A stretch of DNA of 64,000 nucleotides from a virus (IMGVR_UViG_3300025073_000045:1-64000); one strand, 5' to 3'. Positions 1 to 61,750 are shown, counted from the first letter of the stretch. Notes: generated by a model from the sequence alone, not told the origin. Program-made: numbers and translations.

Positions 1-270
1 TATGTGGAGCTCAAGGCACACAAGGAATTCAAGGCATTCAAGGATTATGTGGCCCTATCGGCTTATGCGGCTTAACAGGTAATTGTGGCCCTCAAGGAAT
101 TCAAGGAGTAACAGGTAATTGTGGCCCAATCGGCTTATGTGGAGCTCAAGGCACACAAGGAATTCAAGGCATTCAAGGATTATGTGGCCCTATCGGCTTA
201 TGCGGCTTAACAGGTAATTGTGGCCCTCAAGGAATTCAAGGAGTAACAGGTAATTGTGGCCCTCAAGGCA
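1..270 (+). repeat. 135-bp direct repeat within collagen-like gene
   Basis: The sequence starting at 3 recurs at 138, giving a 135-bp (45-codon) in-frame duplication that is nearly identical over its length. The duplication preserves the Gly-X-Y frame. Confidence 0.85.
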
Positions 271-1538
271 TTCAAGGTGTAACAGGCAATTGTGGCCCTC
301 AAGGAGCACAGGGAATTCAAGGCCTATGTGGCCCTCAAGGAGCTCAAGGAATTCAAGGCCTATGTGGCCCTCAAGGAGCTCAAGGAATTCAAGGCCTATG
401 TGGCCCTCAAGGCATTCAAGGTGTAACAGGTAATTGTGGCCCTCAAGGAGCACAGGGAATTCAAGGAGTTTGTGGCTTAACAGGTAATTGTGGCCCTCAA
501 GGAGCACAGGGAATTCAAGGCCTATGTGGCCTTCAAGGAGCACAGGGAATTCAAGGCCTATGTGGCCCTCAAGGAGCTCAAGGAACTCAAGGAATTCAAG
601 GCCTATGTGGTCCTCAAGGCATTCAAGGTGTAACAGGCAATTGTGGCCCTCAAGGAGCACAAGGAATTCAAGGAGTTTGTGGCTTAACAGGTAATTGTGG
701 CCCTCAAGGAGCTCAAGGAATTCAAGGCCTATGTGGCCCTCAAGGAGCTCAAGGAATTCAAGGCCTATGTGGCTCTCAAGGAGCTCAAGGAATTCAAGGC
801 CTATGTGGCCCTCAAGGAGCTCAAGGAATTCAAGGCCTATGTGGCCCTCAAGGCATTCAAGGTGTAACAGGCAATTGTGGCCCTCAAGGAGCACAGGGAA
901 TTCAAGGAGTTTGTGGCTTAACAGGTAATTGTGGCCCTCAAGGAGCACAGGGAATTCAAGGAGTTTGTGGCTTAACAGGCAATTGTGGCCCTCAAGGAAT
1001 TCAAGGAGTAACAGGAAATTGTGGCCCTCAAGGAGCTCAAGGAATTCAAGGCCTATGTGGCCCTCAAGGAGCACAAGGAATTCAAGGAGTTTGTGGTCCA
1101 CAAGGCTCACAAGGAATTCAAGGAGTTTGTGGCTTAACAGGTAATTGTGGTCCTATTGGCTTATGCGGACCAAGTGGCACAAATGCTATAACAATTGTAG
1201 CAGGAGAAACTTTAGCAGCTGGAAACTTTGTTAATCTTTATTCAAATGCTGGTACAATTAATATGCGTAAAGCAGATAATACTGATAATACTAAACCTGC
1301 TCATGGTTATGTATTAACGGCTGTAACAAGCGGAAATAGTGGAGGATTTTATCAACTAACAGGACTAAATGACCAGTTAACAAGTTTAACAGTAGGTACA
1401 ATATATTTCTTAAGTACAGCGGGTGGAGTAACATCTACACCACCAACTACAGCTGGAAATTTGAACCAAGAATTAGGAATTGCAAAAACTACATCAGCAT
1501 TAGCGGTCTATGAAAGACCTACTATAACAATTGGATAA
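1..1538 (+). CDS. Cysteine-rich collagen-like fibre protein, 5' end outside window
   Basis: An open frame (codons starting at position 3) runs from the window edge with no start codon until 1263, so the N-terminus is missing. Roughly the first 390 residues are Gly-X-Y triplets such as GLC, GPQ, GIQ, GAQ and GNC, with cysteine recurring in the Y position. The last ~120 residues (from about 1180) form a non-repetitive domain with AGNFVNLY and a GYVLTAVTSGNSG-like segment, as seen in phage decoration or fibre head domains. Collagen-like phage proteins usually form trimeric stalks. The same cysteine triplets occur in the proteins at 10899-14702 and 17636-18187, so they probably belong to one virion system. 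Whether this is a head or tail fibre is not clear. Confidence 0.8.
   Translation, partial: CGAQGTQGIQGIQGLCGPIGLCGLTGNCGPQGIQGVTGNCGPIGLCGAQGTQGIQGIQGLCGPIGLCGLTGNCGPQGIQGVTGNCGPQGIQGVTGNCGPQGAQGIQGLCGPQGAQGIQGLCGPQGAQGIQGLCGPQGIQGVTGNCGPQGAQGIQGVCGLTGNCGPQGAQGIQGLCGLQGAQGIQGLCGPQGAQGTQGIQGLCGPQGIQGVTGNCGPQGAQGIQGVCGLTGNCGPQGAQGIQGLCGPQGAQGIQGLCGSQGAQGIQGLCGPQGAQGIQGLCGPQGIQGVTGNCGPQGAQGIQGVCGLTGNCGPQGAQGIQGVCGLTGNCGPQGIQGVTGNCGPQGAQGIQGLCGPQGAQGIQGVCGPQGSQGIQGVCGLTGNCGPIGLCGPSGTNAITIVAGETLAAGNFVNLYSNAGTINMRKADNTDNTKPAHGYVLTAVTSGNSGGFYQLTGLNDQLTSLTVGTIYFLSTAGGVTSTPPTTAGNLNQELGIAKTTSALAVYERPTITIG
321..411 (+). repeat. 36-bp tandem repeat units
   Basis: Units beginning with GGCCTATGTGG start at 321, 357 and 393, an exact 36-bp (12-residue, four-triplet) period; the last unit diverges part-way. 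Each encodes GLCGPQGAQGIQ. Confidence 0.8.
726..850 (+). repeat. 36-bp tandem repeat units, second array
   Basis: The same 36-bp unit begins at 726, 762, 798 and 834, with single-base variants (one copy encodes GLCGSQ) and divergence in the last copy. It lies in the same reading frame as the first array. Confidence 0.8.
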
Positions 1539-1563
1539 TAAAAACCTAAATAAAGGAAAAAAT

Positions 1564-2517
1564 ATGTCAGACATCGTAAAAGAAGATAATAATCTTTTAT
1601 CAGTAATCAATCATTCATTATTTGGTTCTGATAGTAATACTAATAAGATCATTACAAGAGCAACAGATGAAAAATTCTTTGAATTAAAAGCACTTGATAA
1701 TGAGACTTTAACTAAGATAGCAGATTTTATGCCAGAAGTAAATAGAGCTACTAATTCATTTGGTAAGACTCAATCTCAATTTATGAATCATGCAATGACC
1801 ATTTCTTCGTTTGGTGTAATACGTAATTTACGTCAAGTGATGTCAGAAATTGAAAGAAGGAGACAAGCTCTTAAAGAAAATACTTTTAAATTAAAGAAAC
1901 AGATAATTGATTTAAAAGAAAAAGAAGAACAACTAAAAGAATTAGTAGAAAAGAATTTATATAATGATAGGTATAAAATTCTACGCCTTCAGATTGATGT
2001 AGAAGAGATTTCTTCAGGAATTACAGATTCAAGACTTTATATTGAGGGAGCTTTAAAAACTATTTACTCATATCAAATGGCATATCAAGATATGATGAAA
2101 AAGAATAATATTCCACCAGATTGGGATGAGAAGACTTTTGAAGAGGATGAAGAAAGGCATCATATAACAAAAGCTTTTCAACAAGCACATGCAGATATGA
2201 TAAGTACTGGTAGAATAGGTCAAGGTAATCATGAATATATGTGGCAATGTGGCATTAATCCACAATCTGCTTTTAATGATTTAGCAGAGTATATTAATCG
2301 TGAAAATATTGAATATACTAATTCAAAAGGTGTAGGGGTATTATCACCAAAAATAGATGGAAAACTTGAAATTGAAAGTTTCATAAAATTCTTGAATGAT
2401 ATGTATGCTAAATATAAAGGAAGTTCAAGAAAAATTCTTGAAATGAAAGGTATCAATGGTGATGGTTATTATGATGCAGCAGTATTTCATGATATTCAAC
2501 AAAAGACAGGTATTTAA
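1564..2517 (+). CDS. Phage protein with central coiled coil, function unknown
   Basis: This 317-residue protein starts at ATG 1564, chosen over an in-frame ATG at 1531 because AAAGGAAAA lies just upstream of 1564 and the earlier start would overlap the previous gene. A long Glu/Lys/Leu-rich helical region (about residues 85-145) predicts a coiled coil. The C-terminal third is mixed and acidic. No export signal or membrane segment is visible. It lies between a collagen-like fibre gene and the Kelch-like repeat genes, so a structural or assembly role is likely, but I do not recognise the family. Confidence 0.75.
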   Translation: MSDIVKEDNNLLSVINHSLFGSDSNTNKIITRATDEKFFELKALDNETLTKIADFMPEVNRATNSFGKTQSQFMNHAMTISSFGVIRNLRQVMSEIERRRQALKENTFKLKKQIIDLKEKEEQLKELVEKNLYNDRYKILRLQIDVEEISSGITDSRLYIEGALKTIYSYQMAYQDMMKKNNIPPDWDEKTFEEDEERHHITKAFQQAHADMISTGRIGQGNHEYMWQCGINPQSAFNDLAEYINRENIEYTNSKGVGVLSPKIDGKLEIESFIKFLNDMYAKYKGSSRKILEMKGINGDGYYDAAVFHDIQQKTGI

Positions 2518-3492
2518 GTGTCAGAGTACAAAGTTTTAGCATTATATGATGGAATACCTCAAGAATTAAAATCAGGTGATACTGCAGTTATATCAAGACC
2601 ATTATGGTATGGTGAACGTGGAATTATGGGAGGAGGAGAACAACCAGATTGGGGATATTCTTATAATGTTATAGAGTATATTACAATAGCTACAACTGGC
2701 AATTCATCTGATTATGGTGATTTATTACAAAGATTAACTTATATTACTGCTTGCTCAAGCGGAACCAGAGGAATTTTTTCATGTGGTTTTAATTTAATGA
2801 CCGGTAATGTAAGCGTAAATGTTATACAGTATAAAACTATAGCTTCATCTTCAAATGCAGTTGATTTCGGAGATTATAGTACAGAAGCTTATGGTTTATG
2901 CTCAGTATCAAATTATACTAGAGGATTAATTGCTGGTACCGATAATAGAATAAATTATATTACTATTATGTCTTTTGGTAATACAGTTGATTTTGGAGAC
3001 ATGGCTATAGTTAGATATAATACACCTGCTGCAATCTCAAATGGAACAAGAGGACATTTTTGTGGTGGTACTACTACTGGGAATGTGAAAGTAAATAATA
3101 TTGATTATGTAACCATTATGTCTTTGGGTAACTCAGTTGACTTTGGTGACATAACCCAAGAAAGAATATCATTTTATGGATTAGGTGATTTAGTAAGAGG
3201 AATTTGTGCAGGAGGTCAAAAAGCAGGAGATGTTGGTTCTAATGTTATTGATTATATAACATTTTCAATTGCAAGTAATGCAACTGATTTTGGAGATTTA
3301 GTATCTGCAAGATTTGGTGTTAGTGCTACTAATAATGGCAGTAGAGGTATTATTTCTGGTGGACATGGTACTAACGTTATTGAATATATAACTATTCAAA
3401 CTATTGGAAATACAACTGATTTTGGAGATTTAATAAGTAGAGAAAGTGGATATCCAGGAATAAGATTTTCAGGCTCTTGTTCAGGAAATTAA
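2518..3492 (+). CDS. Six-repeat Kelch-like virion protein, paralog 1
   Basis: A 324-residue protein beginning with GTG directly after the preceding TAA. After a ~40-residue leader it has six repeats of about 48 residues. Each repeat carries an N-x-I-(D/E)-Y-(I/V)-T-I strand, then G/S-N-x-x-D-(F/Y)-G-D, then an S-x-x-x-R-G-I/L segment often followed by a Gly-rich turn. Six units of this size with paired glycines suggest a Kelch-like six-bladed beta-propeller (inference). Two paralogs follow at 3497 and 5093. Similar FGDL-type repeats occur in other phage structural proteins, to my knowledge, with no assigned function. A receptor or glycan-binding role is possible. Confidence 0.75.
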   Translation: MSEYKVLALYDGIPQELKSGDTAVISRPLWYGERGIMGGGEQPDWGYSYNVIEYITIATTGNSSDYGDLLQRLTYITACSSGTRGIFSCGFNLMTGNVSVNVIQYKTIASSSNAVDFGDYSTEAYGLCSVSNYTRGLIAGTDNRINYITIMSFGNTVDFGDMAIVRYNTPAAISNGTRGHFCGGTTTGNVKVNNIDYVTIMSLGNSVDFGDITQERISFYGLGDLVRGICAGGQKAGDVGSNVIDYITFSIASNATDFGDLVSARFGVSATNNGSRGIISGGHGTNVIEYITIQTIGNTTDFGDLISRESGYPGIRFSGSCSGN

Positions 3493-3496
3493 AAAA

Positions 3497-4435
3497 ATGG
3501 CAGAATTCTTACCTCTAATATTAAAAAATGGTAAAATAGATAATTTATCTTTAGGAGATGGATACGTTAGTTTTAATAGTGCTCAAAATTGGGATAGAGG
3601 AATTTTTGCTGGAGGTGGGAATAATGTTATTGATTATGTCTCAATCTCACATAAAGGTAATGCAGCAGATTTTGGTGATGTTGATAATGGAGGTTATACA
3701 GAATCTCTTGGTGCTTGCTCAAGTGGAACTAGAGGGGTTTTTGCTGGCGGCAGAATACCAGGCTCCACTTATTCTGCTCAAATGATTTATATTACAATAG
3801 CTACTTTAGGTAATTCAACAAATTTTGGTAACTTAACTACTTCAGCAAGAAGGGCTATTTCAGGCACCACAAATAAAACAAGAGGAATTTTTTGTGGAGG
3901 TGATGATAACTCATCAATATATACATATATAGATTATATTACAATAGCTACTACTGGTAATTCTACTTCATTTGGATCATTATCATCTTTAGGATCATTT
4001 ACAGGTTCATGCTCTAATAATACTAGAGGAGTTTGTGCAGGAGGTTATGCTACTGGTTTTGTTGCTACAAATATAATTGAATATGTAACAATTGCTACAA
4101 CAGGAAATTCAACAGATTTTGGGGATTTAGTAAGAACTAGTACTTATACTTGTGTTGCTATTTCTGATTTAATTAAAGCTTTATTTTGTGTTATTGGATA
4201 TGCAGATTATGTTACAATAGCAACTACCAGTAATGCTTCTTATTTTAGTGGCTTAATTCCAGGTTCAGTTCAATACTCTTCTGGATGCTCTAATGGATTA
4301 TATGGAATAATAGGTGGTGGTACTAGTGATTCTACTATGATAATATTAGTAAATATTAATACTTCTGCCATGTCTGAAGATTTTGGAGATCTTTCATCAG
4401 CAAGATATTTTACAAGTGCTTTGTCTGGAAATTAA
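3497..4435 (+). CDS. Six-repeat Kelch-like virion protein, paralog 2
   Basis: This 312-residue protein starts four bases after the previous stop. The N-terminal ~30 residues (LPLILKNGKIDNLSLGDG) match the leaders of the neighbouring paralogs and probably form a common attachment segment. Six repeats follow, with FGD-type motifs variably preserved (DFGDV, NFGNL, SFGSL, DFGDL, YFSGL, DFGDL). The fifth repeat is the most degenerate. It is the most diverged of the three copies, consistent with diversification after tandem duplication. Confidence 0.75.
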   Translation: MAEFLPLILKNGKIDNLSLGDGYVSFNSAQNWDRGIFAGGGNNVIDYVSISHKGNAADFGDVDNGGYTESLGACSSGTRGVFAGGRIPGSTYSAQMIYITIATLGNSTNFGNLTTSARRAISGTTNKTRGIFCGGDDNSSIYTYIDYITIATTGNSTSFGSLSSLGSFTGSCSNNTRGVCAGGYATGFVATNIIEYVTIATTGNSTDFGDLVRTSTYTCVAISDLIKALFCVIGYADYVTIATTSNASYFSGLIPGSVQYSSGCSNGLYGIIGGGTSDSTMIILVNINTSAMSEDFGDLSSARYFTSALSGN

Positions 4436-4456
4436 ACCTAATAAAAGGATAAATAA

Positions 4457-5083
4457 ATGAAAGTAAACATATTAATTGGAACTCCTGCTTATAATAGTCA
4501 GATACATATTGACTATCTTAATTCAATTATCGATATGCATAGATTGAAGTTACCTATTTCAGTTATGTGTATAGGTAATGAAAGTCTTATTACAAGAGGA
4601 CGTAATACTATTATTTCTTTTTTCAAGACTCATGAAGAATTCACACATCTGTTGTTTTTAGATGCAGATATTGGTATAAAAGGTGACAGTATTATAAAGT
4701 TAATACAACATGAAAAAGATGTTATAGGTGCTCCTGTTCCATTAAAAGGTTTTGATTCAAATGGTAATAAAGTCTATAATATTACAAATCCAATTAAAGA
4801 AGAAAATCTTTATACAGTAGATAAAGTGGGAACGGCGGTTTTCATGTTATCAAGGAAAGCAGTTGAAGATCTTTGTAATAACTCAGATACTTATAATGGT
4901 AATACAATGTCAAGAGGTCTTCAGAATAATAATATTAATTATGATGTTTTCAAAACAGGAATTGAAAATGAGATATACTTAAGTGAAGATTATTATGCAT
5001 GCAAGAAACTTAAAGAATTAGGTTATAAAATATATATTGACGATACAATAATAACAATCCATAATGGAATGTTTCAATTTTAG
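4457..5083 (+). CDS. Small GT-A type glycosyltransferase
   Basis: The 208-residue protein resembles compact phage glycosyltransferases of the GT2/GT-A fold. It has an N-terminal strand with GTPAYNSQ, a SLITRGRNTIISFF segment, and a DAD motif at residues 69-71 in LLFLDADIG, expected to bind the metal and nucleotide sugar. A good ribosome site (AAAAGGA) precedes ATG 4457. It sits between two Kelch-like repeat genes and is co-directional with them, so the acceptor may be a virion protein or a host surface glycan; the substrate cannot be read from sequence. Confidence 0.75.
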   Translation: MKVNILIGTPAYNSQIHIDYLNSIIDMHRLKLPISVMCIGNESLITRGRNTIISFFKTHEEFTHLLFLDADIGIKGDSIIKLIQHEKDVIGAPVPLKGFDSNGNKVYNITNPIKEENLYTVDKVGTAVFMLSRKAVEDLCNNSDTYNGNTMSRGLQNNNINYDVFKTGIENEIYLSEDYYACKKLKELGYKIYIDDTIITIHNGMFQF

Positions 5084-5092
5084 AGTAAGAAT

Positions 5093-6028
5093 ATGCCAGA
5101 AAAAATACCTCTCGTAGGAAAAGACGGTAAGATAATTGAACTAAATTGGGGTGATAGTTTAAAAAACAATTTAGTTTGGATTGGAGACAGAGGAATATTA
5201 GGATTTTTGGTTAATGATGCACTTACTGCATTAAATAATATAAGCTATGTAACCATTACATCAACAGGTAATGCGGCAGATTTCGGAGATCTTACTTTAG
5301 CTAGATATAGAGCAGCAGGTTGCTCAAGCGGAACTAGAGGAGTTTTTGCTGGTGGTGCTGTTACTTACAATGAAATAGACTATATTACTATTGCTACATT
5401 AGGAAATGCCATTGATTTTGGAGATCTTACTAATTCAATGAGTTTAGACATTTCTGGTTGTTCAAATACTATACGGGGTATTATATCTAGTAATGCTAAC
5501 TCACAAAGAATGGATTATATTACTTTTGCTACTAACGGGAATTCAATAAATTTTGGCAATATAACTGTTGCTAGAAATAATCCGAGCGGTTGTTCAAGTT
5601 CTATAAGAGGTATTTTTGGAGGGGGAAATTATGGTGGAAATTATAATACTATTGATTATGTAACTATAGCTTCATCTTCAAATGCAGTTGATTTTGGAGA
5701 TTTAACCGTTGCTAGAAATACTACTGGGGCTTCTTCTAATACTATTAGAGGCGTTTTTGGAGGAGGAGAAACTTCCACAAACATTATAGATTATATTACA
5801 ATAGCAACTACTAGTAACGCGGCAGACTTTGGAGATCTTACTTCAGCTAGAAATGGTGTAACTGGTTGTTCAAACTTGACACGCTCGTTATTTAATGGAG
5901 GTTATTCTGGTGGACCTCTTAATACTATTGATTATGTTACAATAAATACTCTTGGAAATGCAGTAGACTTTGGTGATATTAATGCTGGTGTATATTCATA
6001 TACAAGTGTTGCTTTTTCAGGAAATTAA
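5093..6028 (+). CDS. Six-repeat Kelch-like virion protein, paralog 3
   Basis: This 311-residue protein has the leader PLVGKDGKIIELNWGDSL, close to that of paralog 2, then six repeats of ~48 residues with well-kept DFGDL motifs and R-G-(I/V)-F-(A/G)-GG turns. It is the most regular of the three paralogs. A ten-base gap separates it from the glycosyltransferase, so they are probably cotranscribed. The regular repeats and common N-terminus suggest interchangeable distal domains on a common virion anchor. Confidence 0.78.
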   Translation: MPEKIPLVGKDGKIIELNWGDSLKNNLVWIGDRGILGFLVNDALTALNNISYVTITSTGNAADFGDLTLARYRAAGCSSGTRGVFAGGAVTYNEIDYITIATLGNAIDFGDLTNSMSLDISGCSNTIRGIISSNANSQRMDYITFATNGNSINFGNITVARNNPSGCSSSIRGIFGGGNYGGNYNTIDYVTIASSSNAVDFGDLTVARNTTGASSNTIRGVFGGGETSTNIIDYITIATTSNAADFGDLTSARNGVTGCSNLTRSLFNGGYSGGPLNTIDYVTINTLGNAVDFGDINAGVYSYTSVAFSGN

Positions 6029-7300: not shown

Positions 7301-7768
7301 ATGTGTGAAATATTAGATGAAAAAATTGAGAATACAAAAAAGATATCATCAGCTATTTCTGAGCTAGTATCTACAATGACAAGTAATAAGCATTCAGTTT
7401 TTTTCTTAGAAACTTTAATGGATAATATACCTATTATGGTATTTTTTAAGGATACTAATAATAGATTGATAAAAGTAAATAAATATTTCTGCGATTTAGC
7501 TGGCACAACCAAAGATAAGATTGAGGGTAAAAGAAGTGATGATTTTGCAGAAACAGAACATGAAAAAGAATTAGTTAAACATTATGGAGAGAATGATTTA
7601 GATGTAATTAATTCTAAAAAACCAAAACTTAATATTATAGAGAATTTCTTTAATACAAATATACAAATAAGAACGCATAAATTCCCAATTATTCAGAATG
7701 ATGAAGTAGTGGGGGTTTTTGGCATTAGTATTGAACTAAATACACTTAATCATATTGGAGTTCACTAG
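7301..7768 (+). CDS. Stand-alone PAS domain protein
   Basis: A 155-residue protein with GAGG upstream of ATG 7301. Residues ~40-145 read as a PAS domain: LMDNIPIMVFFKDTNNRLI, NKYFCDLAGTTKDKIEGK, an FAETEHEKEL helix, and the closing strand VVGVFGISIEL. PAS domains bind small ligands or cofactors and mediate signalling or dimerisation. No kinase, GGDEF or HTH domain is attached; the first 35 residues form a short helix. The stop overlaps the GTG of the next gene by one base (TAGTG), so translation is probably coupled to the membrane-protein gene. Its role in a phage late region is unknown. Confidence 0.75.
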   Translation: MCEILDEKIENTKKISSAISELVSTMTSNKHSVFFLETLMDNIPIMVFFKDTNNRLIKVNKYFCDLAGTTKDKIEGKRSDDFAETEHEKELVKHYGENDLDVINSKKPKLNIIENFFNTNIQIRTHKFPIIQNDEVVGVFGISIELNTLNHIGVH

Positions 7769-10898: not shown

Positions 10899-13800
10899 AT
10901 GCCAATTATAATTGAACATAGTCAAGGATATTTAGTAAAACAGAGATTAATAGATGAGAGTAACTCTGCAGTATCAAGTGGTGATTGGGCTACAGTTTCT
11001 ATTGGTGGTAATTCAATTGATGTTACTAAAAGAACTAATATAGTTGTTTATCCAACTGCAGATACTGATATTAATTCTTTTGGTGGAGGGATAGATGCTC
11101 AAAGAATTGTATTAGTAAATGGCTCAAGTTCATATGATTTGAATATGAAGCTTTCTGTTATTGGGCATGATTCTACTTTTGTCTTATTACCTGGTCATTC
11201 TGCTACTTATATTTATAATGCTGCAACTTATGTATGGGCATTTGAAGGTACTTCAGAATTTATTGGGGAAATGAAATATATTTATATGCGAGCAGCTACT
11301 CAACCAATAACTCCTGATTTTGAAGATTATGTTCCAGTTGATTGGTTTGCTGTTCCTCCAGAGCCTAATATTGATGAAGATCCTTTATGGATGTCATTTG
11401 CAGTTGTCGTTGGAGTAAAACCAAAAGGTAATTGGGCAACACCTTTACAACTTGATGGTGTTGTTGGACTTTGTGGTCCTGCTGGCTTATGTGGATTAGT
11501 TGGTTTTTGCGGTATTCAAGGCTTATGTGGCCCTCAAGGTGTTCAGGGAGCTCAAGGAGAAGTTGGAGCTTGTGGTGTACCTGGCCTTTGTGGCCCTCAA
11601 GGTGTTCAGGGAGCTCAAGGTGTTGTAGGTTTTTGTGGTGTTCAAGGCTTATGTGGCCCACAAGGTGTTCAAGGAGCTCAAGGTGTTGTAGGATTCTGCG
11701 GTATTCAAGGCTTATGTGGCCCTCAAGGTGTTCAGGGAGCTCAAGGTGTTGTAGGTTTTTGTGGTGTTCAAGGCTTATGTGGCCCTCAAGGCGTTCAAGG
11801 CTCTCAAGGCATTCAAGGATTATGTGGTCAAACAGGTTTATGTGGCCCTCAAGGCGTTCAAGGCTCTCAAGGTGTTCAAGGATTATGTGGTCAAACAGGT
11901 TTATGTGGCCCTCAAGGCGTTCAAGGCTCTCAAGGTGTTCAAGGATTATGTGGTCAAACAGGTTTATGTGGCCCACAAGGTGTTCAAGGAGCTCAAGGTG
12001 TTCAAGGATTATGTGGTCAAACAGGTTTATGTGGCCCTCAAGGCGTTCAAGGCTCTCAAGGTGTTCAAGGATTATGTGGTCAAACAGGTTTATGTGGCCC
12101 TCAAGGTGTTCAAGGCTCTCAAGGCGTTCAAGGACTATGTGGCCTTATTGGCTTATGTGGTCCTCAAGGCGTTCAAGGCGCTCAAGGTATTTGTGGTCCA
12201 CAAGGTTCACAAGGTATTTGTGGCCCTCAAGGTAATGCAGGTATACAAGGAATTGATGGAGAGCAAGGCCCACAAGGATATTGTGGAGCTCAAGGTCCAA
12301 GAAGTTGGTCTTACTCTATTGCTCAAAATACAAATTTATGGGTTATGTTTGGGGTAAATCATGATAATACTGGGGCAGATTATATAACTACTCATACGCC
12401 AATTATATCAACATTATCTATAAATAGTGCAATCTTTATGTTATTTAATCCTATTTCAAATAAACATTATTTGATGTGGTCATTAAATGCATGCACAATT
12501 ACAGTTACATTAGATGGAGTTTCTCAAACTATATCTCCAAACACAAATGGAGAAGGTTCACTAGAATTAACTAGTGGTTGGGCTTTACTTACTGTGTCTC
12601 AATCTGGCGAAGCAAATGAATTCCGCTTTTATGATTGGACTCTTAATACATATGCTGTACTTGATAATGGTATTTCAGTCAATATACGCCCTGGTGGTCC
12701 AAAAGGGGCTGTTGGAGATTGTGGCCCTCAAGGAGCCTGTGGTTTAGTTGGTAATTGTGGTGCACAGGGAATTCAAGGTTTATGTGGCATACAAGGCACA
12801 CAAGGAATTCAAGGCCTATGTGGCCCTCAAGGAGCTCAAGGAATTCAAGGCTTATGTGGCCCTCAAGGCTCACAAGGAATTCAAGGCAGTTGTGGTTTAC
12901 AAGGCTTATGTGGTATACAAGGAGCTCAAGGAATTCAAGGCTTATGTGGCTCTCAAGGCTCACAAGGAATTCAAGGCTTATGTGGCCCTCAAGGCTCACA
13001 AGGAATTCAAGGTAATTGTGGCCCTATTGGCTTATGCGGAGTTCAGGGTACACAAGGAATTCAAGGCTTATGTGGCCCACAAGGTGCTCAAGGAATTCAA
13101 GGAGTTTGTGGCCCACAAGGTGCTCAAGGAATTCAAGGTAATTGTGGCCTTCAAGGTTTATGTGGAGCTCAAGGCACACAAGGAATTCAAGGCTTATGTG
13201 GTCCACAAGGTGCTCAAGGTTTATGTGGCATACAAGGCACACAAGGAATTCAAGGCTTATGTGGCCCACAAGGTGCTCAAGGAATTCAAGGTTTATGTGG
13301 CCCACAAGGTGCTCAAGGAATTCAAGGAGTTTGTGGCCCACAAGGTATTTGTGGTATACAAGGCCAACAAGGACCTCAAGGTTTATGTGGACAACAAGGC
13401 GCTCAAGGTATTTGTGGTATACAAGGCCAACAAGGACCTCAAGGTTTATGTGGACAACAAGGCGCTCAAGGTATTTGTGGTATACAAGGCCAACAAGGAC
13501 CTCAAGGTTTATGTGGACAACAAGGCGCTCAAGGTATTTGTGGTATACAAGGCCAACAAGGACCTCAGGGTCCATGTGGTCCTTGTGGAGCTCAAGGAAT
13601 TCAAGGAGCTCAAGGACCTACAGGATTCTGTGGTGGTCAGGGTGTTTTAGGTACAGTATTAGCTTCTGGTGTAACAATAAATGCAGGTGGATATTTTAGG
13701 ATAGGATCTGGAGATAAAGATGATACTTTGACTGGTATTTGGATAGATGATACTGAAATAGTAGCTCAAGATGGAAATGGTACAGATACTGTACGTATAG

Positions 13801-14702
13801 GAGTTGATGGTTCATTTTATGCTATTAAAGGCACAATAGCAGGATTCACCATAGAAGAAACATGGTTATATACTGGAACTATATCAACTACTAAAATTGT
13901 AATTAATGCTGCTTCTGACTCAATCTATGCAAGACCTTTGGGTGCTGGAGCTAATACTAAGTATGTAATGCTAGGTCAAACCCATGATGGTACAAACTGG
14001 ACAGGTAACTATGGAATAAGTGCTGTCGATGGTAGTAATAGAATGCTTTTTAGAATTGATGATTCTGTTAAATCAATTGCTGGTTGGAATTTTGACTATC
14101 AAAGCTTTTCAAATATCACAACTGGTACTGGTATTGAATTAAGTGTTGGTACTACAAAAAATGTCACTACAGGATTTTCAGTTTTTAATCCTTCAAGTCC
14201 AAAATTGTTTATTGGAGACTCAACCTATTTTTTAGATTGGAATAATGGAAGTGGAAGTGGTACTACTGGTAAATTAACTATAAAAGGAGATATTATAGGG
14301 AGCAGGTTTTCCACCGAATCTACAAATGTTTTTGATGGTTCTAATGGTACTTATGCTTCACTACATCATGTGAGTGGAACTCCTATTTTATTTATGGAGA
14401 AATTTACTGATACTAGTAATTATACTATTGTGAACTTTACACCTGGTTCAATAGTAAATAGTGTAGCTGGATTTTTATATGCTACTTTAGTAAGTGCTGG
14501 AACTACAATTGGTTTAATAGAAATGGGTTGTGGGAATACAGCTGATTCTGCTTTTATAAAAATTGATAGTATGCATGTTGCTAGATGGAGGGGAAGATTT
14601 GCAACTGATCCTACTACTAATAATAGAGAAGGTGATATGGGATATCACACTGGTACTTCGGTAGTTAGATTATATACTAATGGTGCTTGGACAAATGTAT
14701 AA
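10899..14702 (+). CDS. Giant cysteine-rich collagen-like fibre protein
   Basis: This 1267-residue protein has five parts. Residues 1-185 are a beta-rich globular head, probably virion-anchoring. Residues ~186-467 are Gly-X-Y repeats with GLC, GFC and GIC triplets. Residues ~468-596 are an inserted globular domain (NLWVMFGVNHDN, GWALLTVSQSGEANEFRFYDW). Residues ~597-917 are a second collagen-like arm, and residues ~918-1267 a beta-rich tip ending RLYTNGAWTNV, as in many tail fibres. Cysteine sits at Y positions every four to seven triplets or closer, unusual for phage collagens. The likely product is a trimeric jointed fibre for host contact. Repeats at DNA level (63 bp) suggest length variation. 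Confidence 0.85.
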   Translation: MPIIIEHSQGYLVKQRLIDESNSAVSSGDWATVSIGGNSIDVTKRTNIVVYPTADTDINSFGGGIDAQRIVLVNGSSSYDLNMKLSVIGHDSTFVLLPGHSATYIYNAATYVWAFEGTSEFIGEMKYIYMRAATQPITPDFEDYVPVDWFAVPPEPNIDEDPLWMSFAVVVGVKPKGNWATPLQLDGVVGLCGPAGLCGLVGFCGIQGLCGPQGVQGAQGEVGACGVPGLCGPQGVQGAQGVVGFCGVQGLCGPQGVQGAQGVVGFCGIQGLCGPQGVQGAQGVVGFCGVQGLCGPQGVQGSQGIQGLCGQTGLCGPQGVQGSQGVQGLCGQTGLCGPQGVQGSQGVQGLCGQTGLCGPQGVQGAQGVQGLCGQTGLCGPQGVQGSQGVQGLCGQTGLCGPQGVQGSQGVQGLCGLIGLCGPQGVQGAQGICGPQGSQGICGPQGNAGIQGIDGEQGPQGYCGAQGPRSWSYSIAQNTNLWVMFGVNHDNTGADYITTHTPIISTLSINSAIFMLFNPISNKHYLMWSLNACTITVTLDGVSQTISPNTNGEGSLELTSGWALLTVSQSGEANEFRFYDWTLNTYAVLDNGISVNIRPGGPKGAVGDCGPQGACGLVGNCGAQGIQGLCGIQGTQGIQGLCGPQGAQGIQGLCGPQGSQGIQGSCGLQGLCGIQGAQGIQGLCGSQGSQGIQGLCGPQGSQGIQGNCGPIGLCGVQGTQGIQGLCGPQGAQGIQGVCGPQGAQGIQGNCGLQGLCGAQGTQGIQGLCGPQGAQGLCGIQGTQGIQGLCGPQGAQGIQGLCGPQGAQGIQGVCGPQGICGIQGQQGPQGLCGQQGAQGICGIQGQQGPQGLCGQQGAQGICGIQGQQGPQGLCGQQGAQGICGIQGQQGPQGPCGPCGAQGIQGAQGPTGFCGGQGVLGTVLASGVTINAGGYFRIGSGDKDDTLTGIWIDDTEIVAQDGNGTDTVRIGVDGSFYAIKGTIAGFTIEETWLYTGTISTTKIVINAASDSIYARPLGAGANTKYVMLGQTHDGTNWTGNYGISAVDGSNRMLFRIDDSVKSIAGWNFDYQSFSNITTGTGIELSVGTTKNVTTGFSVFNPSSPKLFIGDSTYFLDWNNGSGSGTTGKLTIKGDIIGSRFSTESTNVFDGSNGTYASLHHVSGTPILFMEKFTDTSNYTIVNFTPGSIVNSVAGFLYATLVSAGTTIGLIEMGCGNTADSAFIKIDSMHVARWRGRFATDPTTNNREGDMGYHTGTSVVRLYTNGAWTNV
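11778..12155 (+). repeat. Six 63-bp tandem repeat units
   Basis: Units beginning TGTGGCCC start at 11778, 11841, 11904, 11967, 12030 and 12093, an exact 63-bp (21-residue) period. Copies differ at only a few bases. Each encodes CGPQGVQGSQGVQGLCGQTGL or a close variant. Confidence 0.9.
13344..13567 (+). repeat. Three exact 63-bp repeats plus a partial fourth
   Basis: Copies begin at 13344, 13407 and 13470 with no visible differences, and a fourth begins at 13533 and diverges after about 35 bases. Each encodes GICGIQGQQGPQGLCGQQGA plus Q, with two cysteines per unit. Identity at synonymous positions indicates recent duplication or gene conversion. Confidence 0.92.
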
Positions 14703-17635: not shown

Positions 17636-18187
17636 ATGAACGTTAAAATCAGAATTCCTGGAGATGAGAGATTTGATTTAATCTCTGTCCCAGTTGAAGC
17701 TGCTACTGTGATTGCTAACGGTGATCTTGTTTCTTATGAATCAGGATACGCTGTTAAGCTTGATGCTGAAGCAGAAGATGCAACATTTGTTGGTGTTTGC
17801 GAAAGAGGTTCAAATCTTAATGAAACAACACCAATTACAGTTTGGAGAAAAGCTATTGTTGAAGCTACTGTTGATTCAGCAGCTTTTGCAATTGGTGATG
17901 GAATTTCTCTTTCTGCTGGTGGTACTCTTGAAAAAGCTGGTGATAACATCTTAATGCATTGCTTTGAAAGCAGTGTTGGTGTTTCAGTAACAACTGTTAA
18001 AGCAGTTATTGATGTACAATCTCTTGGCAAGTTGTTTGCTACAAATGCTACTGTTGGACTTTGTGGTCCTGCTGGCTTATGCGGCCCTATTGGTCTTTGT
18101 GGTCCAGAAGGTTTATGTGGCCCAATCGGTTTATGTGGTCCAGAAGGATTATGTGGCCCTATCGGCTTATGTGGTCCTGGTATTTAA
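17636..18187 (+). CDS. Head decoration protein with cysteine-rich collagen-like tail
   Basis: A 183-residue protein after GGAGAAG. Residues 1-138 form a beta-rich domain (VIANGDLVSYESGYAVKL, ATFVGVCERG, FAIGDGISLSAGGTLEKAG), like small capsid decoration or DUF2190-type proteins. Residues ~140-183 are Gly-X-Y triplets with cysteine in every second triplet (GLCGPAGLCGPIGLCG). The gene sits between scaffold and major capsid protein, the usual place for decoration proteins. The tail should project from the capsid as a short trimeric fibre and shares its motif with the long fibres at 1-1538 and 10899-14702. Confidence 0.75.
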   Translation: MNVKIRIPGDERFDLISVPVEAATVIANGDLVSYESGYAVKLDAEAEDATFVGVCERGSNLNETTPITVWRKAIVEATVDSAAFAIGDGISLSAGGTLEKAGDNILMHCFESSVGVSVTTVKAVIDVQSLGKLFATNATVGLCGPAGLCGPIGLCGPEGLCGPIGLCGPEGLCGPIGLCGPGI

Positions 18188-57593: not shown

Positions 57594-57765
57594 TTTTCTT
57601 AGCCTTAAATAATAAATATTTATTAAATTTTCTTTTAACCTTCCAAGCAAAATATATTGCTGTTATGTTTTGAAAATAATGTAACCCTATAAATGATGCA
57701 AATGGAGAAGATGCTATCTCATATAATAAAAATTCAGAAACTTGCTCTTTTTGTTCTTGTGTCAT
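57571..57765 (-). CDS. Small protein with possible membrane helix
   Basis: A 64-residue protein overlapping the glycosyltransferase stop by four bases. It has an amphipathic start (QEQKEQVSEFLLYEIASSPF), a hydrophobic stretch (ASFIGLHYFQNITAIYFAW) and a basic tail. Could be a peripheral membrane protein. Function unknown. Confidence 0.5.
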   Translation of the reverse strand: MTQEQKEQVSEFLLYEIASSPFASFIGLHYFQNITAIYFAWKVKRKFNKYLLFKAKKNGIKQSS

Positions 57766-59885
57766 AATTTATCTCCCAATTCTAAGAATCTTTTTGCAAC
57801 ATTAATCCAAGATAAGTTCTTAGACTGTTCTAATCCTTTTTGATGATAATCATACCAGTCAATATCATTGGTTAATAAATGTTTAACAGCATTTATAAAA
57901 TTTTCTCTATGGTCTTTATTTTTTATCCAACCATCAACAATAATACCGGCATTTCCAACTCTTTCTCTCAAACAACCCCAATCTGAAGCAACTGCTGGAG
58001 TTCCTGCTGCTTGAGCTTCAATGGCTGTAATACAAAATGTTTCTAACCATGTGCAAGGATATAACCATAATTTACTAGACATATATTCTTTTGCAAGATC
58101 TTTCTGATTATGATATCCTCTATAAATTAATCCAGGTGTTTCTTTCCAATAATTTGGATGTTTTCTAATATTATCTGGATAGTATCCAAAAACATGTAAT
58201 TCTAATCTATTATCCCATTTTTTTAGTTCTTCAAAAATGGGTATCAACTCAGTCATGCCTCTATCTGGATTACTTGAATATATTAATTTTGTAGGTATTC
58301 TTTCTACTTTTTGGTTAAATCTTGATAAATCTAAACCATTAGCAAAAATCTCCATTTTACTAGTAGGTATAAATGGATATGCAGCCGTAAAGAATCTATA
58401 ATGATATCTTGATAACACTAAAAATTTATCAAAATAGTTTATATTAATAGGATTAATCCTGTTATAATAGTTTAAATCATGAGCCCAAAAATAAACTTTA
58501 GTCTTTGGATTCACAAATCTAAATTCTGGTAATCTTGACACTATTAAAGTATGTATTTCATTTATCTTTTCAAAAGCATCAAATTTCTCTATAGGTTCCC
58601 AAGCTACACCATCAATGATTTTTGGATTACCACAATTATTAAAAACATAAACTAAGTGACCTAATTTAGCAAGTTCTTTTGAAAGTTGTATTACTGCAAT
58701 TTCAGATCCGCCAATTCCTTTCTCAGTGTTATCTGCGTCCCAAGTATGCCCAGCATCAGGTTTTACATAGAAAACTATTAACTGTTGTTTTCTTTTTACA
58801 ACTTCATAAGTGTCTCTTTGAGCAGTTAAATATTCATACCTTGACCTAACATCATCATAAACTTCTAGATTAACTAATGGTTTAAAAAACTCAGATCCTT
58901 CTGAGAATCGACCAGTCTGATCATAACAACTACTTAAATATGCATATGCTTGATGTATTCCTGCATAAGCAGCTATTTTAAGATATGGAATAGCTTCTGC
59001 ATATTTAATTTCATTAAAAAGCTTAATTCCGTTATTAAAATTAATAATTCCCCAATCTACCATTTGTCCTTGTAGTTTTTTTGATTTTAATTCAATGACT
59101 GCTTTTAAAGGTGTTTTATTTTCTGGTACAGGCATTGAATATCTTTCAATCAAAGTAGCACTTAATAGTTCTGCATTACCTTCATTAAATCTAATAGTAT
59201 CAGTAGAATTGGTATATTTGTCAAGTATTGATAAATTACCAAACCTTTCAATCAAGAAATTGGTAAAATCATTAATGGGTATCGCTTTATCCGTTGATTT
59301 TCCAACCAAATGATTGATTTCCATAGTAGAATCTACTAATATTAAGAAATTTTCTCGTTCAGCAAATAATGCAAAATCTAAATCTAATCCGCCATGAAAG
59401 TAATTTAATTTTTTCCCTTTTAAACCTTTTAAGAAAGCTTTTACAAATGAATTTGACAAAACTGCAGATTGCAAATCAGAATATCTAGTGAGAAATATAC
59501 CCTTTTGTGTAATTCTCTGGGGAGATATAAATCCATTAAGAGTGTCATTAACCTTTGTTGTGACTATACCAATATTATCAGCATGATTAATCAAATTTAA
59601 GAATTTATCTAAGTAATTATATTGTAAATCCAAAACACAATCACTATTTAAAAGCCAATATCCAGCATAATCTTCTTTACAGCTTAACCATTTTAATACA
59701 GTTTGATCGAATCCAAGATTACGGGTGCTAAGTTCAGTAGCTTCTGTCATCTTATTTGAAGAACTATTATCCCAAATAGTTAAATCAAACTTTGATTCAT
59801 CAAATGTCTTAATTTGATTCATTAAGTTTTTTGTTAATTCTGGGGTTTCATAATTAATTACTAAAATTGCAATCTTATTTTTCAT
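57762..59885 (-). CDS. Bifunctional glycosyltransferase (GT2-like plus GT4-like)
   Basis: A 707-residue protein. Residues ~1-130 are GT2-like (IAILVINYETPELTKNLMNQ, TIWDNSSSNK, YWLLNSDCVLD). Residues ~280-350 form a helical TPR-like linker (YAEAIPYLKIAAYAGIHQAY). Residues ~365-700 are GT4/GT-B: GIGGSEIAVIQLSKELAKLG, KLIYSSNPDRGM, a WLYPCTWLETFCITAIEAQA segment with the family's E-x(7)-E pattern, and AAGTPAVASDWGCL. It should transfer one or more sugars from nucleotide donors. It lies with another GT in the early operon near DNA methyltransferases; the acceptor is unknown. Confidence 0.85.
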   Translation of the reverse strand: MKNKIAILVINYETPELTKNLMNQIKTFDESKFDLTIWDNSSSNKMTEATELSTRNLGFDQTVLKWLSCKEDYAGYWLLNSDCVLDLQYNYLDKFLNLINHADNIGIVTTKVNDTLNGFISPQRITQKGIFLTRYSDLQSAVLSNSFVKAFLKGLKGKKLNYFHGGLDLDFALFAERENFLILVDSTMEINHLVGKSTDKAIPINDFTNFLIERFGNLSILDKYTNSTDTIRFNEGNAELLSATLIERYSMPVPENKTPLKAVIELKSKKLQGQMVDWGIINFNNGIKLFNEIKYAEAIPYLKIAAYAGIHQAYAYLSSCYDQTGRFSEGSEFFKPLVNLEVYDDVRSRYEYLTAQRDTYEVVKRKQQLIVFYVKPDAGHTWDADNTEKGIGGSEIAVIQLSKELAKLGHLVYVFNNCGNPKIIDGVAWEPIEKFDAFEKINEIHTLIVSRLPEFRFVNPKTKVYFWAHDLNYYNRINPININYFDKFLVLSRYHYRFFTAAYPFIPTSKMEIFANGLDLSRFNQKVERIPTKLIYSSNPDRGMTELIPIFEELKKWDNRLELHVFGYYPDNIRKHPNYWKETPGLIYRGYHNQKDLAKEYMSSKLWLYPCTWLETFCITAIEAQAAGTPAVASDWGCLRERVGNAGIIVDGWIKNKDHRENFINAVKHLLTNDIDWYDYHQKGLEQSKNLSWINVAKRFLELGDKL

Positions 59886-61750
59886 ATTTTTTTCCTTAGA
59901 TATTCAAGGTTTGCAGGATTTTGTTTGTCAATTGTATACCAGTCTGCTTTTCCTGTTCTTAAATCATGAGTATCTTTAAAATATCTTTTAAACATTTCTT
60001 TTATGTTCTCTAACCCATAATTTTCAACAGCATATTTTCTTATCTTTTCTGGATTAAGCTTCTCAGATGATTTACAAGCCCAGTAAATATCATTCATAGT
60101 TTTACATCTATAACCAGTTATTCCATGGAGGTTTGTTTCAACAAAAGCTCCATAGTCACTGGTAATAATTGGAGTACCACATAACATGGCTTCAATTGGA
60201 GCATGACCAAATGGCTCAACATATAGACTAAAATAGATTAGAGCTTTAGCTTTTGATAAGTATTTAACTTTTTGCTTAAGTGGTAATACTCCTACTTCAA
60301 CTACATGATCAAATACTTTATATACTGAACCCGCTTGAATGTCAGGATCAAATATACTACCACCGCCTATAACTACAAGTTTTTTGCCTAATTGGTGAGT
60401 GACATCAATAGCAACTGATAAGCCTTTACCCCAAGTTTTCCTTCCCAAGAATACATAATAATCATCTTTCTCTGCTTCAAATGGGTAATCATCTACATTA
60501 AAATATGCTGGGATAACATAATCATAGTTGTTTGGAAAATATGAGGGAGAGTTTTTATTCCACCTATAGTAACAAGCTGTTGCCCATGTGTATGATTCAA
60601 AAATTCTATCCGGTAAATATGATCCACCATGTCCTATTCCAGGTTCAATACAAATACAATGAGATGCATAGACATCTGTGATAGGTCTAAAAGCATCCCC
60701 AAAGAAATTTAGAATAAAATCATGCTTTTTAACTCTTGACTCAAGACTTTCAATTGTATTCTTAATAAAAGCTTCAAAATCAAGACCTTCTTGATTAGTT
60801 AGATGGTCAAGAGCATTTTTATCTCTTTTGCCATGTATTTTATTATGCATGCTCTCAGAAACAACAGAAACAAATTCATCAATCTTCTCATCAATTTTGC
60901 TTCCTTCAACACCATAAACAATTACTTTATAGTCTAATTCTTTAAGCATCCTGCACATATAAATAATTTTAGTATTGAATGGATTATTAGGTGCTTCTTC
61001 CCATCCAAGTTTATAATCTGCTAAGCCTAATAGGTGAAACGTTGGTTTTTCTGGTTCTTTCAATTTTGTTTCAATAACTGAATTCACTATATACCCAACA
61101 TGCCATGACATTTCATTGTTAGCAGCGGTTATAGTATCTGTAATAACCATACCTAGTTTTTCAAGATCCTCAATTGATATCTGGTTAATATGCTCAGATC
61201 CTTCATCTGCTGGATTTCCAGTAACTCCTGGCCACATATGTTCTTCTCTTGGTATAGTTATTAATAAAAGTCCATTATCAGATAACCAAGATTTAACTTT
61301 ATTAATTGTCTCAGCTGGATTGATTAAATGTTCAATAATCTCTCCCATTATGATAACATCAAACTTTTCAAATGTTTTATATGTTTCAACATCTGCATTG
61401 ATGTAGGGTAAAGCATATCTAAATTCTCCTAAGTGACATGCCTTTACATTTAATTCAAGACATTGAACTTTATTATAACCCAACATTTTAAGCTCATTTG
61501 AAAACAAACCAGACCAAGCTCCAATATCAAGAATTTTGATATCTTTACCTTTTACAGCACTAAGAGTTGATACTGCATTTTTTACAAAATCAAGTCTAGG
61601 TCTTATTAAAGGATTATTTGCTGAATCAAGCCATACATTCTCATTACCTCTATAATATTCTTTAACAATCTCTCTATTATGAGGGGTATTTATACCTTTC
61701 ATTATCTCTGAAGTAGCTTTCTTGAATTGTTCAGTACTTATTTTATTCAT
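59882..61750 (-). CDS. SAM-methyltransferase/GT4 glycosyltransferase fusion
   Basis: A 622-residue protein overlapping the next gene by four bases. Residues ~50-220 are a class I methyltransferase: IKILDIGAWSGLFSNEL (SAM site), FDVIIMGEIIEHLINPAETI, LLLITIPREEHMWPGV. The C-terminal ~380 residues are GT4/GT-B-like, with YYVFLGRKTWGKGLSVAIDV, LVVIGGGS and EPFGHAPIEAMLCGTPIITSD. Fusion of sugar transfer and methylation suggests making and capping a methylated sugar or modified base. Substrate unproven. Confidence 0.85.
   Translation of the reverse strand: MNKISTEQFKKATSEIMKGINTPHNREIVKEYYRGNENVWLDSANNPLIRPRLDFVKNAVSTLSAVKGKDIKILDIGAWSGLFSNELKMLGYNKVQCLELNVKACHLGEFRYALPYINADVETYKTFEKFDVIIMGEIIEHLINPAETINKVKSWLSDNGLLLITIPREEHMWPGVTGNPADEGSEHINQISIEDLEKLGMVITDTITAANNEMSWHVGYIVNSVIETKLKEPEKPTFHLLGLADYKLGWEEAPNNPFNTKIIYMCRMLKELDYKVIVYGVEGSKIDEKIDEFVSVVSESMHNKIHGKRDKNALDHLTNQEGLDFEAFIKNTIESLESRVKKHDFILNFFGDAFRPITDVYASHCICIEPGIGHGGSYLPDRIFESYTWATACYYRWNKNSPSYFPNNYDYVIPAYFNVDDYPFEAEKDDYYVFLGRKTWGKGLSVAIDVTHQLGKKLVVIGGGSIFDPDIQAGSVYKVFDHVVEVGVLPLKQKVKYLSKAKALIYFSLYVEPFGHAPIEAMLCGTPIITSDYGAFVETNLHGITGYRCKTMNDIYWACKSSEKLNPEKIRKYAVENYGLENIKEMFKRYFKDTHDLRTGKADWYTIDKQNPANLEYLRKKI

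Follow-up and report, generated by a model that had tools for sequence, protein, structure and literature searches.

Stem-borne Kelch-type propellers as probable exchangeable receptor-binding heads in a family of tailed phages

Here, we show that an uncultured tailed phage encodes, next to a collagen-like tail fibre, three paralogous six-bladed propellers of Kelch-type fold, each borne on a short stem. Taken as a whole, the observations are best explained if these propellers are receptor-binding heads that are swapped as cassettes and accompanied by a conserved helical partner, an explanation that we consider quite probable. Exchangeable receptor-binding heads, as proposed by the initial annotation of this locus, are well supported for the family, by mosaic exchange and by fusion to a lambda J-type protein; for the phage analysed, we infer the same, including location in the virion and receptor binding. 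The sequence studied (IMGVR_UViG_3300025073_000045:1-64000, hereafter the window, 64,000 nucleotides in full) comes from a virus record of 77,451 bases whose gene content is that of a tailed phage and includes collagen-like fibres, an endolysin, a large tail region and a major head protein that matches a maturation protease. The local gene order is phrog_1409 gene, head 1, head 2, glycosyltransferase, head 3; the phrog_1409 gene lies directly upstream of head 1, beyond the interval that was annotated initially (2518-6028), and the collagen-like gene is the upstream neighbour of the whole module. The features are as follows.

3..1538, plus strand: collagen-like (Gly-X-Y) tail-fibre gene, 3′ part, truncated at the window edge; the open frame has GPQG/GLCG repeats and a globular C-terminal part
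1531..2517, plus strand: phrog_1409 module partner, all-helical, alternative ATG start at 1564; phrog_1409 E 1.7e-15
2518..2616, plus strand: leader (stem) of propeller protein 1; aligns with leaders 2 and 3; motif L-x-L-x-(D/N)-G...L..GD
2617..3492, plus strand: six-bladed Kelch-type head 1; six repeats, 44% identity to head 3
2835..2875, plus strand: 41-nt tract in blade 2 of head 1; 97.6% identity to the tract at 5662..5702 in head 3
3497..3595, plus strand: leader (stem) of propeller protein 2; from alignment with the other leaders
3596..4435, plus strand: six-bladed Kelch-type head 2, repeats 5 and 6 degenerate; from the repeat split and alignment with head 3
4457..5083, plus strand: GT-A-type glycosyltransferase (phrog_1574), 208 aa, ATG start; phrog_1574 E 5.5e-18, DAD and SED intact
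5093..5188, plus strand: leader (stem) of propeller protein 3; predicted beta-hairpin of lower confidence (AF2 strands 4-8 and 14-18, pLDDT 47-71)
5189..6028, plus strand: six-bladed Kelch-type head 3; structure predicted (AF2), Foldseek matches KLHL12/KEAP1/SAKe6
5662..5702, plus strand: partner tract in blade 4 of head 3; 20-mers common to the paralogs, with zero expected from 200 Markov simulations

All four open reading frames announced by the initial annotation, those of the glycosyltransferase and of the three propellers, were recovered: ORF 1 starts with GTG (2518-3492, 324 aa), and ORF 2 (3497-4435, 312 aa) and ORF 3 (5093-6028, 311 aa) start with ATG. The three paralogs can be aligned end to end at 35-46% identity and share the repeat pattern RGxFxGG...NxIDYxTI..(G/S)Nx.DFGD. 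When repeats are delimited by splitting at the RG[IV] strand, each protein contains exactly six, as had been claimed for a unit of ~48 residues, with lengths between 42 and 51 residues (50/51/43/49/49/49 aa in protein 1, 45/50/48/50/42/44 aa in protein 2, and 49/46/44/47/45/48 aa in protein 3). A related leader of ~32 residues opens all three proteins (LALYDGIPQELKSGDT / LILKNGKIDNLSLGDG / LVGKDGKIIELNWGDS), so that the leader noted earlier in paralogs 2 and 3 is indeed present in both but is not limited to them; neither a pattern search nor tblastn detected the leader of this phage on other proteins. Judging from the nucleotide sequence, the 41-nt tract common to head 1 and head 3 is possibly a relic of sequence exchange among the paralogs.

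The propeller fold surmised from the repeats was borne out by structure prediction. Protein 3 was modelled with AlphaFold2 (AF2) from an alignment of 111 sequences (mean pLDDT 89.3, pTM 0.85). The model contains six blades, each made of four strands, and its C-terminal strand (304-307) supplies the missing part of blade 1; that the ring is closed was deduced from strand order. In a Foldseek search of the PDB, the top 50 matches are without exception Kelch domains or Kelch-based designs, with TM scores against KLHL12, KEAP1 and SAKe6 of 0.75-0.78 by query and 0.82-0.86 by most targets; model and matches alike conform to the closed ring of 6-7 four-stranded blades that defines the Kelch-type fold. 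Viral structural matches include phage proteins named Kelch or virion structural protein. By contrast, the Pfam Kelch profile matches none of the three window proteins at E<=1 and none of the 111 family members at E<=0.01, and searches of Pfam and PDB sequences yielded no relative of the heads. Thus, the family is Kelch-like by fold only and lies outside those sequence families. The Kelch repeat is marked by a glycine doublet after strand b, a conserved Tyr in strand c and a Trp in strand d; in the phage family, RGxFxGG and NxIDY are present, and the Trp is replaced by the Phe of DFGD.

Independently of any structure model, repeat numbers obey a simple rule: 365 of the 380 distinct complete relatives possess 6, 12 or 18 repeats (329, 35 and one, respectively), so the count of six is not due to chance, and most of the exceptions are split genes, the pieces of which sum correctly (3+3, 4+2, 7+11). 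One locus (L036:4640-7254) has two neighbouring propeller ORFs, of 7 and of 11 repeats, which makes 18 together, and the related L035 has a single ORF with 18, the gene border in the former being shifted by one blade.

The heads are highly diverse, and the diversity is concentrated on one side of the propeller. When the 329 distinct six-blade heads were compared, the distribution of pairwise identity was bimodal: approximately 50,000 pairs fell within 30-60%, and only a few dozen exceeded 70%; just 18 pairs reached at least 88%. Mean column entropy amounts to 2.42 bits in the b-c loops and 2.73 bits in the d-a loops, against 0.92-1.71 elsewhere, and length changes among heads occur mainly in the b-c loops. 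One face of the propeller is therefore variable and the opposite face conserved. In Kelch proteins, the b-c and d-a loops form the substrate or ligand face (KLHL20, PMC6720452).

The propellers are part of a recurrent gene module. With protein 3 as the query, 80 IMG/VR loci were found, in which propeller genes are followed by phrog_1409 and often then by the glycosyltransferase. Independent searches that started from phrog_1409 and from the glycosyltransferase encountered propellers in 66/76 and 59/75 loci, respectively, two sets that overlap and include some truncated loci. Of 60 distinct modules whose upstream side is complete, 34 contain three propeller units, 13 contain one and 8 contain four. 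In the loci L022, L094, L104 and L112, at least nine six-blade propeller genes form two arrays around the phrog_1409/glycosyltransferase pair. The upstream neighbours of the module in relatives are tail-fibre and virion genes, and propellers were found within or joined to tail-fibre genes, a feature by which receptor-binding proteins are recognised. A search of genome collections yielded no more than nine loci, most of them in metagenome bins, suggesting that the module is phage sequence; among named phages, the heads were detected in S-SKS1 only and phrog_1409 in none. The AF2 model of the phrog_1409 protein is all-helical (pLDDT 80), and a fold search with this model gave no PDB match at E<=0.001. 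Given that phrog_1409 stays constant beside changing heads, we infer that it acts as an assembly factor or connector.

In closely matched relatives, heads differ and their surroundings do not. In locus pairs with partner proteins 97.5-100% identical, the heads are only 45-65% identical, although one head of the set may stay at 89-99%; in the well-matched pairs, stems are mostly 75-100% identical and flanks are conserved. The proteins thus combine a conserved N-terminal anchor with a variable C-terminal head, as is typical of receptor-binding proteins. Because heads are swapped while stems stay, the stem is a region separate from the head; to this extent the initial reading of the leader as a virion anchor holds, with presence of the proteins in the virion of the window phage being a plausible extension. 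At the DNA level, L042 and L068 are 89-90% identical through the stem of head 1; identity is lost across head 1, regained over its end (the last blade) and stem 2, lost again across head 2, and then regained. In L010 and L013, the stems match by position (86, 91 and 89%), and head 2 of one locus corresponds to head 3 of the other and vice versa, at 99% identity; metagenome assembly can mis-join repetitive genes, and the L010 arrangement also occurs in a second contig (L009), with that of L013 in one contig only. Finally, L123 and L147 carry one head (95% identity) on unrelated stems. Altogether, 172 of the 200 positional head pairs have diverged, a count that overstates the clean cases because it includes truncated contigs paired by position, so that our conclusion is drawn from the pairs named above. 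That heads are replaced and traded between stems, as seen across many environmental phages, is as expected of parts that recognise the host bacterium.

Exchange was observed in relatives, the partner proteins of which are 20-37% identical to that of the window phage, because all contigs matching the window phage represent the same phage: no close relative with different heads was found, and a capsid search for close relatives likewise retrieved the same phage only. The two available assemblies differ at six sites, none of them in the heads and all within the collagen repeats at 11936-11991, which is likely assembly noise. The gene that contains these repeats (10899-14702) resembles that at 3-1538 and matches PF01391 Collagen and tail-fibre PHROGs. 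Together with 17636-18187, both encode collagen-like Gly-X-Y with a cysteine every ~six to twelve residues (GLCGPQG...), an unusual type of collagen, and a cysteine-rich collagen-like stretch also forms the C-terminal tail of a small protein directly before the major head protein. Other genes of the window deserve mention. The gene for a small PAS-domain protein (7301-7768, PF13188 E 1.9e-6) is flanked by those of a C92-type peptidase and of the endolysin, an odd place for a sensor domain, close to the phage lysis genes. Two adjacent genes on the minus strand (57762-59885 and 59882-61750) encode large multidomain GT4-type glycosyltransferases, the latter with an N-terminal methyltransferase, and this pair is located close to a C5-cytosine DNA methylase and an N6/N4 DNA methylase.

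The stems themselves vary among relatives: fn3 domains are present in 20/111, and further kinds include lectin-like Laminin_G domains and tail-fibre-like segments. In the cultured bacterium Desulfobacter vibrioformis DSM 8776, a 1260-residue lambda J-type central tail fibre protein (phrog_31 E 1.5e-85, PF13550) ends in a propeller, and the phrog_1409 gene comes next. The J protein of lambda binds its receptor via the C-terminus.

The same data bear on two other accounts of the propellers. Kelch domains mostly mediate protein-protein contacts and also serve as scaffolds, and the whisker-like tail hairs of phage CBB have been discussed together with the Kelch proteins of this phage (PMC5259590), so that the propellers might be tail scaffold or decoration proteins instead of receptor-binding heads. 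We regard this as improbable, given that exchange among near-identical phages, variation on the ligand face and the position of a propeller at the C-terminus of a J-like tail-tip fibre all fit recognition better. Highly variable loops on a conserved scaffold would also be produced by a diversity-generating retroelement. Such an origin, however, is very hard to credit: a search for the reverse transcriptase that accompanies targets of these elements found none in the 77-kb record and none in 16 related records, possibly incomplete, divergence spans whole heads with insertions and deletions, and entire heads change stems. From the pattern of sequence identity, head exchange appears to be recombination of whole heads.

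The role of the glycosyltransferase is a separate question. Its D69-A70-D71 and S176-E177-D178 are invariant across 22 aligned homologues, so that the protein possesses the DxD metal site and the conserved catalytic acidic residue of GT-A (GT2-like) enzymes; Pfam glycosyltransferase families gave no match above cut-off for the protein encoded at 4457-5083. The enzyme gene lies close by in 26 of the 60 distinct modules that are complete upstream and is absent from the other 34, and is thus dispensable for the module. The position between copies 2 and 3, pointed out in the initial annotation, is confirmed for the window but is not general, the gene in relatives usually following phrog_1409 with a spacing of mostly -1 to +5 nt. 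Distant relatives of the enzyme are found among replication genes of other phages, and there is a weak match to phrog_842, a T4-type DNA glucosyltransferase. In L103, L148 and L159, relatives of the enzyme occur in loci that lack propellers; their neighbours there are protease, DNA methyltransferase or tail-tube genes, and their targets may differ.

Glycosylated heads, suggested at the outset as an alternative, are not supported, as no finding of this sequence-based analysis would seem to speak for them. Modification of the propellers or the collagen-like fibres by the enzyme, such that the surface facing the host is glycan, would agree with intact catalytic motifs, with a gene that lies between heads 2 and 3 and adjoins the head module in many relatives, and with the two further large glycosyltransferases of this phage. 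Still, we find this rather unlikely: over half of the modules do without the enzyme, N-x-S/T sites are rarer in heads from modules with the enzyme than in those without it (55% vs 77%), that is, not enriched, and the distant relatives of the enzyme reside among replication genes or beside DNA methyltransferase or protease genes. Somewhat more plausible, if tentative, is that the enzyme alters the host O-antigen against other phages or modifies phage DNA, its location reflecting a hypervariable host-recognition island. The affinity with replication genes and with phrog_842 points in this direction, as do pelagimyophage islands in which glycosyltransferases lie beside tail fibres and a change of the host O-chain has been proposed (PMC7029224); the tight, operon-like spacing to phrog_1409, unlike that of a loose island gene, does not.

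Returning to the propellers as exchangeable receptor-binding heads, we envisage the following scheme. The short N-terminal stem would dock on the tail apparatus and be followed by one closed six-bladed propeller, the b-c and d-a loops of which, all on one face, would provide the variable ligand surface. The heads, commonly a set of three, would be built with the conserved helical partner phrog_1409, and the neighbouring glycosyltransferase would be an accessory. A head could then be swapped, or moved between stems, through homologous recombination at conserved sequence in the stem and at the end of the last blade, with the remainder of the phage staying near-identical, so that host recognition would be altered and virion assembly left undisturbed. 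Whether this amounts to a widespread system of combinatorial host recognition, with typically three heads on position-specific stems that move between stems and phages, a dedicated helical partner and a very large repertoire attained without reverse transcriptase, is, in our estimate, an even call.

The host-recognition genes of uncultured phages are mostly unannotated. The propeller family is common in environmental viromes and recognisable by sequence, and its exchange pattern marks the part that meets the host; hence, receptor-binding proteins could be named in many metagenomic phages. Furthermore, the family is a natural case in which Kelch-type propellers would serve as binding units open to exchange, and the conserved phrog_1409 partner becomes a testable candidate for an assembly factor.

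Hypervariable host-recognition islands are already known (PMC3909814), among them those of pelagimyophages, which, as far as the considered portion of that report goes (PMC7029224), resemble the present locus as hypervariable tail-fibre islands with glycosyltransferases but differ in that no propellers are reported there and one genome pair displays gradual island divergence, not complete replacement. Kelch virion proteins of phages are likewise known; the swapping-head cassette appears to be new, no swapping set of Kelch-type heads with a phrog_1409 partner being described in the open papers searched. Indeed, the Kelch protein CBB_552 of jumbo phage CBB, which belongs to a different lineage, was detected in the virion by mass spectrometry (PMC5259590), and this protein and the Kelch-motif protein of BcepSaruman are, like the heads studied here, Kelch-type propellers of tailed phages, although structural matches share only ~10-20% identity and we found no description of swapping head sets or of a phrog_1409 partner for them. 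The Synechococcus phage S-SKS1 protein YP_007674366.1 (phrog_19111) belongs to the same repeat sequence family and has a tail-fibre gene nearby, but its annotation is just hypothetical or unknown function. The central tail fibre J of lambda has a counterpart in the Desulfobacter vibrioformis protein with the family propeller at its C-terminus, whereas the window heads are separate proteins on short stems. With KLHL12, KEAP1 and the designed SAKe6, the heads share six four-stranded blades, a C-terminal strand that closes the ring, a glycine doublet after strand b and a ligand face made of b-c and d-a loops; unlike these, they belong to a family with 9-15% sequence identity to them and no Pfam Kelch match, and the phage propellers are each carried on a stem and come in sets of three.
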